From: Fluviicola sp.
GTDB lineage: Bacteria; Bacteroidota; Bacteroidia; Flavobacteriales_D; Crocinitomicaceae
Direction of reading: 5' to 3'
Assembly: GCA_002734085.1 (NCBI GenBank)
Contig: NVXV01000019.1
Location: 1 to 64,000, forward strand
DNA length: 64,000 bases
Under the pieces are notes generated by a model that made no database searches, was not told where the DNA came from, and saw nothing but the letters and a program-made list of their open reading frames with translations. Positions 55,358-57,202 of the stretch are shown in pieces (within the stretch, counting starts at the first letter, position 1; each line of letters opens with the position of its first letter). The position numbers and the translations under genes are program-made.

Positions 55358-56107
55358 ATGGCTCTAATACATTCCCTTGAAAAATCTGGAAATACCTTAT
55401 TTAAGTACCGAGGACAGATACCAGTGATTTTATTTATTCTTGCTGTCCCTGTTATTTACTTTACTGATTACAGTTTTATTTTCAGCGAAGATATCACCTA
55501 CTGGATCTTAATGGGGGTAGCAGTACTCCTGTCTCTATTAGGGCAGGTAATACGCGCCATTGCAATTGGAACAGCCAACAAGAATACTTCAGGAAGAAAC
55601 ACCAAAGAACAAGTTGCAGAAGCGTTGAACACAAAAGGCATCTACTCCACTATGCGCCACCCTCTTTATGTAGGTAATTATTTCATGTGGATAGGTATTG
55701 TTGTCTTTACAGCGAATATTTGGTTTGTTTTAGCAGTAAGTTTAGCGTTCTGGTTATACTATGAGCGTATTATGTTTGCTGAGGAAAGATTTCTTGAGAG
55801 AAAATTTGGACAAGACTATCTTGATTGGTCTTTAAAAGTACCTGCTTTTTGGCCTTCGTTCAAGAATTATATCCCTTCACCGATTTCTTTTTCAATGAAA
55901 ACGATCTTAAGAAGAGAATACTCTGGAGTAACAGCAACAATAATAGGGTTTCTATTTGTGGAGGTGTTAAGAGATGTTTTTACGACTGGAACCTTTGAAT
56001 TTAAAATTCATTACATTGTAATACTGGCAGTGGCCTTGTTTATTTCATTGTTTTTAAGAACATTAAAGCATCACACAAAAATTTTATTCGAAGAGGATCG
56101 TTCTTAG
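55358..56107 (+). CDS. Isoprenylcysteine methyltransferase-like (ICMT/PEMT) membrane protein
   Basis: 249 aa with about six helices. The hallmark segment is 'GIYSTMRHPLYVGNYFMWIG', then 'FAEERFLERKFGQDYLDWSL' and 'KVPAFWPSF', the SAM-binding part of the ICMT/phospholipid methyltransferase family. The substrate is unknown in bacteria. Its last ~65 bp are also present in decayed form 322 bp downstream (56363 onward), showing that its 3' end was duplicated together with the tRNA promoter. Confidence 0.88.
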   Translation: MALIHSLEKSGNTLFKYRGQIPVILFILAVPVIYFTDYSFIFSEDITYWILMGVAVLLSLLGQVIRAIAIGTANKNTSGRNTKEQVAEALNTKGIYSTMRHPLYVGNYFMWIGIVVFTANIWFVLAVSLAFWLYYERIMFAEERFLERKFGQDYLDWSLKVPAFWPSFKNYIPSPISFSMKTILRREYSGVTATIIGFLFVEVLRDVFTTGTFEFKIHYIVILAVALFISLFLRTLKHHTKILFEEDRS

Positions 56108-56171: not shown

Positions 56172-56321
56172 GTGTGTTGGCTCAGGATACTAACAAAATC
56201 GTCAGTATTAGAGCGCAGGATTCATAACCCTGAGGTCGGGAGCCTTGACGAAATGAATTTTTCAAAATTCTTTTGTCAAGATACTGATCAGAGCATCAGC
56301 ATTCAAATCTCCCTCGCGCCA
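56172..56321 (+). pseudogene. Interrupted tRNA-Met copy with hairpin insertions
   Basis: It contains an unaltered anticodon arm ('gcgcaggattcataaccctg') and 3' acceptor/T-arm half, but has two insertions. One in the D-loop (ATACT...AGTAT ends) replaces 'gtt'. The other, 59 nt, is at the T-stem/T-loop junction between 'gtcgggag' and 'ttcaaatctccc' and folds as two hairpins. Its 5' acceptor strand is damaged (gtgtgttgg for ggcgtggtag). The -7 box upstream is also decayed (TAAATCTG). It is unlikely to give a working tRNA. Confidence 0.85.
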
Positions 56322-56451
56322 TACAGTCTTACCTCTAAATAATTCAATCCTTTTCAAGTTATTATTTCATTGTTTATAAGTGCTTTGAAGTTTCGTTTCA
56401 AAATTTTATGCGAAGATGATCATTCATAAGTACAGAATTAAAAAAAACTTC

Positions 56452-56459
56452 TATATTTG
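56452..56459 (+). promoter_or_regulatory. -7 promoter element (TATATTTG) for tRNA-Met
   Basis: Exact TAnnTTTG match, 34 bp upstream of the tRNA 5' end. The duplicated copy upstream has TAAATCTG at the same place. Confidence 0.6.
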
Positions 56460-56493
56460 CACCCTCAAAACCAACAAGTAGTTTGTTTTAATT

Positions 56494-56567
56494 GGCGTGG
56501 TAGCTCAGTTGGTTAGAGCGCAGGATTCATAACCCTGAGGTCGGGAGTTCAAATCTCCCTCACGCCA
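56494..56567 (+). tRNA. tRNA-Met (anticodon CAT)
   Basis: 74 nt with all arms: acceptor GGCGTGG/TCACGCC, D-arm GCTC/GAGC, anticodon loop TTCATAA, T-arm GGGAG-TTCAAAT-CTCCC. CCA is not encoded. The 1-72 pair is G-C, so it is the elongator type rather than the initiator. The closing pair of the anticodon stem is A-C, which also occurs in the damaged copy. It is followed by an intrinsic terminator. Confidence 0.95.
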
Positions 56568-56578
56568 CTAGAAAGAAA

Positions 56579-56624
56579 AGAGAATGAGAGACAGAGTGAG
56601 AGCGATGACTCTCATTCTCTTTTT
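56579..56624 (+). terminator. Intrinsic terminator of tRNA-Met
   Basis: AGAGAATGAGAG / CTCTCATTCTCT stem followed by TTTT, starting 12 bp after the tRNA. The same terminator with small changes follows the tRNA fragment at ~57006-57050. Confidence 0.88.
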
Positions 56625-56661
56625 ACTTAATTCTCACCTCTCCTTCCCTATCTAACCTATA

Positions 56662-56925
56662 ATGAAATACTACACTTACATTTTTAAATCTATTAATCAT
56701 GATGAGTATTATATTGGTCAAACCAACAATATAGTTAATCGTCTCGAAAGACATAATAAAGGCTACGAAAAATATACTAGCAAATATAAACCTTGGGAAA
56801 TAGCTTTGAAAATCGAAAAAAACAGTCGCTCTGAAGCTATTATACTTGAAAGAAAGCTAAAGAACTTAGGGGGTAAAAGACTTAAACAATTTATTGAAAA
56901 GTATAGCCGAGGTCGGGAGACTTGA
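56662..56925 (+). CDS. GIY-YIG nuclease family protein, tail read from a tRNA fragment
   Basis: 87 aa. The GIY-YIG core is 'YYTYIFKSINHDEYYIGQTN' with 'NIVNRLERHNKGYEKYTSKY' and the catalytic Glu region 'SEAIILERKLKNLGGKRLKQ'. This small form is common in Flavobacteriales beside tRNA genes. The normal protein end is 'FIEKYS'; the last five residues 'RGRET' and the stop are encoded by the 3' half of a damaged tRNA-Met and its inserted hairpin. It lies between an intact tRNA with terminator and that fragment. Cleavage of DNA is known for the fold; the role here is inferred. Confidence 0.88.
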   Translation: MKYYTYIFKSINHDEYYIGQTNNIVNRLERHNKGYEKYTSKYKPWEIALKIEKNSRSEAIILERKLKNLGGKRLKQFIEKYSRGRET

Positions 56926-56999
56926 CGAAATGAATTTTTGAGAAATTCTTTTGTCAAGATGCTGATCGGAGCATCAGCATTCAAATCTCCCTCACGCCA
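56909..56999 (+). pseudogene. 3' half of tRNA-Met with the same T-loop insertion
   Basis: It starts at 'gaggtcgggag' (variable loop and T-stem), carries a 60-nt insertion that is over 85% identical to that of the copy at 56172-56321, and then resumes 'ttcaaatctccctcacgcca'. The 5' half of the tRNA is replaced by the GIY-YIG ORF. The inserted hairpins are CTTGAC...GTCAAG (long stem) and TGCTGAT-cggagc-ATCAGCA. Confidence 0.88.
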
Positions 57000-57084
57000 C
57001 TAAAAAGAGAGTGAGAGACAGAGTGAGAGCGATGACTCTCATTCTCTTTTTACTTCATCCTCACCCCTCCTTCTCTACTCCATA

Positions 57085-57129
57085 ATGAAATTCTACACCT
57101 ACATTCTAAAATCCATAAATCATCAGTAG
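57085..57129 (+). pseudogene. Start of a second GIY-YIG ORF, broken
   Basis: After the tRNA fragment and a copy of the terminator, 'MKFYTYILKSINHQ' restarts the same GIY-YIG N-terminus but hits a TAG after 14 codons; nothing recognisable follows. It shows that the tRNA-terminator-nuclease unit was repeated and then decayed. Confidence 0.85.
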
Positions 57130-57202
57130 TATTACCTAAATGCTGTGACTTTGTGGCTTTTTAAATTTTCAACCATTATACTGAAATATCTTTTTTATCA
57201 TT

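Follow-up and report, generated by a model that had tools for sequence, protein, structure and literature searches.

Integrative elements that encode a tyrosine recombinase and target tRNA genes carry the tRNA 3' end, leave the gene rebuilt and may accrete into arrays. The double-hairpin elements of mitochondria are organellar and, to our knowledge, have no nuclease unit, no fixed tRNA T-loop site and no regenerated tRNA. They were described from fungal and other mitochondrial DNA as two adjacent hairpins, are proposed to be mobile and also occur in RNA genes (PMC2800124). CGTC-tagged REPs are found in the Bacteroidetes and Chlorobi with no known transposase (PMC3733652). The free-standing GIY-YIG endonucleases of the SegB type from phages T4 and T6 are encoded among tRNA genes and have a cut motif that resembles the T-loop (PMC13096335).

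In the window (the whole 64,000-nt stretch of DNA that was analysed), a methyltransferase-like gene (PEMT/ICMT, 55358-56107) comes first and all of the tRNA-Met parts lie downstream of it. On the + strand it is followed by a damaged tRNA-Met copy with an insert (56172-56321), a partial repeat of the upstream region, an intact tRNA-Met (56494-56567) and a terminator-like hairpin (56576-56625), and then by a GIY-YIG gene, a tRNA-Met 3' fragment with an insert, a second copy of the terminator region (57003-57077, 93%) and the decayed start of another GIY-YIG gene. The damaged copy has inserts in both its D-loop and its T-loop; its acceptor 5' strand is degraded, and 35 nt around the anticodon arm equal those of the intact tRNA-Met. 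Its T-loop insert, a double hairpin of 59 nt (56243-56301, model score 59 bits), is preceded by GGTCGGGAG at 56234-56242 and followed by TTCAAATCTCCCTCGCGCCA. The D-loop holds a probable remnant of a second-hairpin insertion at 56187-56208 (TACTAAC AAAAT C GTCAGTA, before TTAG), which looks like half of the double-hairpin element and matched the insert model weakly (56181-56209, E 0.48). The intact tRNA-Met(CAT) was detected by ARAGORN and by Rfam (69 bits) and may be read as a regenerated target.

The GIY-YIG nuclease ORF (56662-56925, 87 aa; Pfam PF01541, E 3.9e-14) has intact catalytic residues, and its stop codon lies inside the first hairpin of the second insert. This insert, a double hairpin of 60 nt (56920-56979, model score 60 bits), stands between a copied variable loop and 5' T-stem strand (GAGGTCGGGAG, 56909-56919) and TTCAAATCTCCCTCACGCCA, where positions 54-73 of tRNA-Met begin (56980-56999). 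Its stems are CTTGAC-G-..GTCAAG in hairpin 1 and ATGCTGAT..ATCAGCAT in hairpin 2. The remnant of the second GIY-YIG gene (57085-57134; tblastn match of 59% over 22 aa) was read as a decayed distal unit. The segment 56040-56172 was also found at 56362-56494 (81%), a tandem duplication of the end of the methyltransferase gene and the promoter region that precedes each tRNA-Met copy. Since the locus has also been tandemly duplicated in this way, the two inserts in the window need not be independent insertions.

The original prediction had described identical inserts of 59-60 nt exactly between the 5' T-stem strand and the T-loop of two damaged tRNA-Met copies. The position was correct: both inserts have GGGAG before them and TTCAAAT after them, which places them at tRNA-Met 53/54, and their lengths are 59 nt in copy 1 and 60 nt in copy 2. 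The intact tRNA was likewise confirmed to lack the insert, with GGGAG joined directly to TTCAAAT. The inserts do occupy the same base; they are not identical, matching at 55 of 60 positions with one gap. The segment 56172-56321 is indeed a damaged tRNA-Met copy, and 56909-56999 proved to be a 3' fragment that starts at the variable loop, right behind the GIY-YIG gene. The proposal of a mobile hairpin element, small and precise in its target, received strong support, given that the insert lies at the same 53/54 site in tRNA-Gly and, elsewhere, beside at least 15 isoacceptors. It has to be revised in one respect: the insert in the window is not a free-standing 60 nt, and instead forms the right end of a larger unit with a GIY-YIG gene, a copied tRNA 3' end and a terminator. 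The prediction would have been abandoned if the insert occurred nowhere else, or only away from tRNA genes; it was found in tRNA-Gly of the same genome and beside other isoacceptors. A local accident spread by duplication was rejected as the whole story, because other tRNA genes, genera and orders have the insert.

Covariation of both stems had been proposed as a check, and both stems were found to covary. In an alignment of 16 T-loop examples that covered the T-stem, hairpin 1 and hairpin 2, pairing was kept through changes on both sides in 16 of 25 consensus pairs. In an alignment of the insert only, 95.1% of cells paired and 12 of 22 pairs had double compensatory changes, values that were reached by none of 500 shuffles. 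When folded as single-stranded DNA, copy 2 beat all 200 dinucleotide shuffles (z -5.5) and copy 1 beat 198 of 200. In related sequences hairpin 1 has a conserved unpaired G after GAC (GAC-G) and hairpin 2 has an unpaired C before GTC (C-GTC), so that hairpin 2 is an inverted hairpin 1. The G-U share was 2.4% of pairs among 59 distinct hairpin-1 sequences, compared to 11.4% in the intact tRNAs of the same loci, folded in the same way, and 16% in shuffled hairpins. This rarity argues for constraint on the DNA and suggests selection at that level, but templated repair, acting on palindromes, could have the same effect on the number of G-U pairs. Rfam searches at gathering and relaxed thresholds gave significant matches only to tRNA, 5S, LSU and tmRNA, with no intron or other RNA family, and a known RNA family was therefore rejected as the identity of the insert. 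A hammerhead-like CUGANGA in hairpin 1 was also rejected, since those bases pair and covary and there is no GAAA partner.

The GIY-YIG genes linked to the element encode proteins of 79-87 aa, in which the catalytic residues Y6, Y17, R27 and E63 were invariant among 37 sequences. Synonymous differences between the proteins from the window and from another genome of the same genus (G008) were saturated and the nonsynonymous value was 0.11, as expected of genes under strong purifying selection. The AlphaFold2 model of the nuclease (pLDDT 92.8) matched UPF0213 BH0048 with the best E-value and then Slx1, which acts on branched DNA (TM 0.65-0.69), ahead of I-TevI (about 0.5); in this predicted structure the 87-aa protein is a single catalytic domain with no separate DNA-binding region. 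It matched no NCBIfam family. In a tree of 63 proteins, based on a short alignment and with many weak forks, the window nuclease grouped with that of G008, apart from other tRNA-Met elements. The 13 isoacceptor labels required 19 changes on this tree (minimum 12, shuffled mean 30.9), which indicates that target switching has happened but has not been free. Because isoacceptors cluster on the tree, much of the spread of the element may have been vertical.

A deeper second clade of nucleases includes genes that are followed by tRNA copies in which a hairpin replaces the anticodon arm, not the T-loop (L079, L083, L085 and L086). This correlation, of T-loop changes with the clade of the window and anticodon-arm changes with the second clade, suggests that the choice of loop lies with the nuclease. 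The genome of the window has a second, distantly related GIY-YIG gene of its own (G000:C3:206601-206831; L041, 1403-1731, - strand). It is followed by a full tRNA-Val-like copy with its anticodon arm replaced by the hairpin TCCCGACTTTACGTCGGGA, and the tRNA-Val upstream of it has no 5' half.

Within the genus, the methyltransferase gene was present in eight of ten genomes. In G008 the same tRNA-Met is followed by at least two GIY-YIG units with the same insert; in the six carriers of the methyltransferase gene besides G008 and the window genome, an ordinary tRNA-Met comes next, and neither a GIY-YIG gene nor an insert follows it. Overall, seven congeners had a plain tRNA-Met without a GIY-YIG gene there, or no sign of the unit, and the carriers were the window genome and one congener.

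The nuclease was searched for in 240 genomes of the family, where GIY-YIG genes were found directly behind tRNA genes for Met, Asp, Val, His, Ala, Leu and Arg. Most of them were followed by a 3' copy of the same tRNA, with the double hairpin at 53/54 for Met, Val and Ala. The insert was turned into a covariance model (R1), which matched in 30 of the 240 genomes and in 7 of 24 genera, and the nuclease was carried by 21 of these 30 genomes compared to 31 of the other 210 (Fisher 9.5e-10). In a sample of the phylum under strict filters only 3 of 396 genomes matched, so that this model underestimates distant types. The window's own genome had three good matches, namely the two copies in the window and one in a tRNA-Gly fragment (G000:C27:98325-98374), again at 53/54, with no GIY-YIG gene. 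In the same genome a tRNA-Gly 5' fragment (L120, about 1278-1350) lies upstream of an intact tRNA-Gly and has a long structured insert behind the 5' strand of its D-stem.

Other R1 matches lay in D-loops (tRNA-Asp, L117; a tandem array of tRNA-Ala, L113; tRNA-Asn, L123), near position 10/11 (Arg, L116; Asn, L127), at T-loop position 59/60 (His, L070; Ala, L129) and in 3' copies of 5S rRNA (L110, L111, L114 and L132). The orientation was always sense where a host gene could be recognised, as it could for all but a few matches (among them L115, L126 and one in L130). Copies in D-loops usually preceded the intact tRNA and those in T-loops followed it; either way, the duplicated piece is the piece needed to keep the gene intact. 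Tandem arrays were seen in L161, L170 and G008, and L204 has four units without a nuclease gene. At the 5S rRNA loci (L110, L111, L114 and L132) 3' fragments that carry hairpin replacements form arrays, with the double hairpin standing before TAAGTCG. The tRNA-Met fragments of L065, L073, L075 and L081 have an extra hairpin in the acceptor 3' strand, between TCTC and GCTAC. The tRNA-Asp elements (L059-L063, L066 and L067) have the same bulged double hairpin (CCGACG..GTCGG, CAGAC..CGTCTG), placed not in the T-loop but in a hairpin that follows tRNA-Asp, at ATGG|CTG of the hairpin loop.

The pattern TGCTGAC-N(2-16)-GTCAGCA-TTCRANTC was scanned over 85,462 prokaryote genomes and was found at 84 places in 76 stretches. 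By our estimate about four matches were expected by chance, and four (in Pantoea, Dickeya and Savagea), which lack both hairpin 1 and any matching tRNA, were taken as such. The remaining 80 T-loop insertions were from Bacteroidota, including a few records named only as uncultured bacterium, and from one contig labelled Chlorobiota. Near-identical units occur in a Chlorobiota MAG and in a Bacteroidales MAG (L143 and L145), which reflects either cross-phylum transfer or a binning error. Several features were not required by the pattern. A C before GTCAG was present in 78 of the 80 insertions, a hairpin-1 candidate in 75, the GAYG bulge motif in 63 and full T-stem pairing in 53. In 40 of the 80 a GIY-YIG gene lay just upstream, mostly ending 40-57 nt before hairpin 2. 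For 52 insertions a parent tRNA was found; each time it was intact, had a matching 3' end and lay on the same strand, upstream of the insertion, at about 90-146 nt without the nuclease gene and mostly 380-450 nt with it. The isoacceptors beside insertions numbered at least 15, including Met, Asp, Arg(CCG), Arg(CCT), Leu(GAG, TAA, CAA), Gly(GCC, CCC), Val(TAC, GAC), Thr, Lys, Pro and Phe, with a few assignments resting on 70-76% matches. Because the pattern demanded a T-loop in the sense orientation, the evidence for both the T-loop site and the orientation comes from the R1 search. Among 2.9 million viral contigs none matched the pattern, and a phage origin was rejected on that basis.

What can be read from the sequences is the anatomy, the site and the association, repeated across genera and isoacceptors, together with covariation in the bulged hairpins, a nuclease under purifying selection and congeners whose sites are unoccupied. 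From these we infer that the units probably represent a family of small mobile elements that targets tRNA genes. The proposed unit would be bounded by the T-loop on its left and the double hairpin on its right, and would comprise tRNA positions 54-76, the terminator of that tRNA, the GIY-YIG gene, a copied 5' T-stem strand and two inverted hairpins with one-base bulges. It would enter a tRNA gene between position 53, the end of the 5' T-stem strand, and position 54 in the T-loop; the 5' part of the host gene and the element's own 54-76 would then form an intact tRNA upstream, and the displaced 3' end would lie behind the hairpins. Further units could enter the same rebuilt site and so produce tandem arrays. 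The arrays of L161, L170, G008 and L204 fit such repeated entry, and the decayed distal unit of the window fits older units lying further away. The GIY-YIG protein may nick DNA at a three-way junction of the T-stem and the double hairpin, or at the T-arm of the target gene, and host recombination would complete the insertion. Short derivatives that lack the gene, among them those in D-loops and in copies of 5S rRNA, could be moved in trans. Two leads bear on the DNA form that the predicted nuclease would cut: the Slx1-like fold with a possible three-way junction, which would explain the hairpins and the non-T-loop sites, and the phage SegB motif, which would explain the exact T-loop position.

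Against mobility it has to be counted that half of the insertions have no adjacent nuclease gene, that the nuclease is a bare catalytic domain and that the target site persists in the rebuilt tRNA, a feature for which a simple homing model has no explanation. That model, in which a free-standing GIY-YIG homing endonuclease breaks both strands at the T-loop of an unoccupied tRNA gene, repair copies the element from an occupied allele and the double hairpin is a by-product or regulator, is in our judgement unlikely. In its favour, SegB, a GIY-YIG homing endonuclease, cuts within tRNA genes with the preferred motif RAWTSGAAC and drives tandem amplification of tRNA and segB (PMC13096335). By our reading, the reverse complement of this motif, GTTCSAWTY, equals the T-loop consensus; a cut at G53|T54TCRA would fit the exact point of insertion, element-free congeners exist and the active-site residues of the GIY-YIG family are intact. 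If the insertion site is taken as the target, however, G53|T54 was intact upstream in 52 of 52 cases, and the element would cut itself. Moreover, the protein has no DNA-binding region beyond its 80-aa catalytic domain and a fold nearer Slx1 than I-TevI, the insertions in D-loops, 5S rRNA copies and the tRNA-Asp terminator hairpin share no T-loop sequence, and the conserved hairpins are left unexplained.

Retention of the altered tRNA and 5S copies for an RNA function, as decoys or as cis-acting 3' structures of the nuclease mRNA, would account for the sense orientation of all inspected insertions with a recognisable host gene, for their location in loops of structured RNA genes and for the tRNA copies with a hairpin in place of the anticodon arm that accompany the second nuclease clade. 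We regard it as improbable, as G-U pairs are scarcer than one would expect of structured RNA, a promoter or 5' half is missing from many fragments, the copies are patchy, tandem and decaying, and no Rfam family corresponds to them. Passive spread, with tandem duplication and gene conversion alone carrying one old hairpin insertion from tRNA gene to tRNA gene and no dedicated machinery, agrees with the duplication in the window and with the common arrays, but is very improbable in view of insertions beside unrelated isoacceptors with differing T-stem sequences and in 5S copies and D-loops, of differing hairpin sequences with the same bulges and of the fixed linkage to a nuclease gene.

The putative mobile element resembles homing endonucleases, REP/RAYT systems, mitochondrial double-hairpin elements and tRNA-integrating elements without having all of the defining features of any of them. 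Like SegB, it places a GIY-YIG gene among tRNA genes and shows tandem amplification of the tRNA and nuclease gene; unlike SegB, it resides in bacterial chromosomes, encodes a single catalytic domain nearer Slx1/UPF0213, is inserted exactly at 53/54 and has a conserved double hairpin, a rebuilt intact tRNA and nuclease-less derivatives. With REP/REPIN and RAYT systems it shares short inverted hairpin pairs, non-autonomous copies and a CGTC motif. In contrast to them it is confined to RNA-gene loops rather than dispersed between genes, its recurrent linked gene encodes a GIY-YIG protein, where RAYT systems have a Y1 (HUH) transposase, and its CGTC, made up of the bulged base and stem of hairpin 2, lies inside the stem with no GTAG/CGTC terminal tag outside the palindrome. 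The nuclease unit, the fixed T-loop site and the rebuilt tRNA set it apart from the mitochondrial double-hairpin elements as these have been described. Unlike the tyrosine-recombinase elements it has no integrase: units of about 100-400 nt contain only the GIY-YIG ORF or no ORF, and the crossover is marked by a folded double hairpin.

No description of the element was found in Rfam, NCBIfam or the open-access literature, where work on GIY-YIG proteins with tRNA genes, on T-loop insertions and on Bacteroidota palindromes was covered; on this open-access basis priority is not certain. These results point to an undescribed family of tRNA-gene mobile elements that does not destroy its host gene. 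A broader proposal, towards which we lean slightly less than away, is that they represent a class of transposable elements with a stand-alone Slx1-like GIY-YIG protein as sole enzyme. It would recognise an extruded, bulged double hairpin, choose hairpin loops in tRNA and 5S rRNA genes for insertion by their structure and not their sequence, carry the piece that saves the host gene and move short derivatives in trans. If the mobile-element reading is true, it would give a role to the small GIY-YIG genes beside Bacteroidota tRNA genes and would mean that DNA can move with a GIY-YIG nuclease and folded hairpins, not a transposase or recombinase. It would also explain why tRNA and 5S rRNA fragments occur in strings, which one might readily put down as pseudogenes, and would provide a minimal system, of about 100-400 nt, in which structure-directed integration could be tested.
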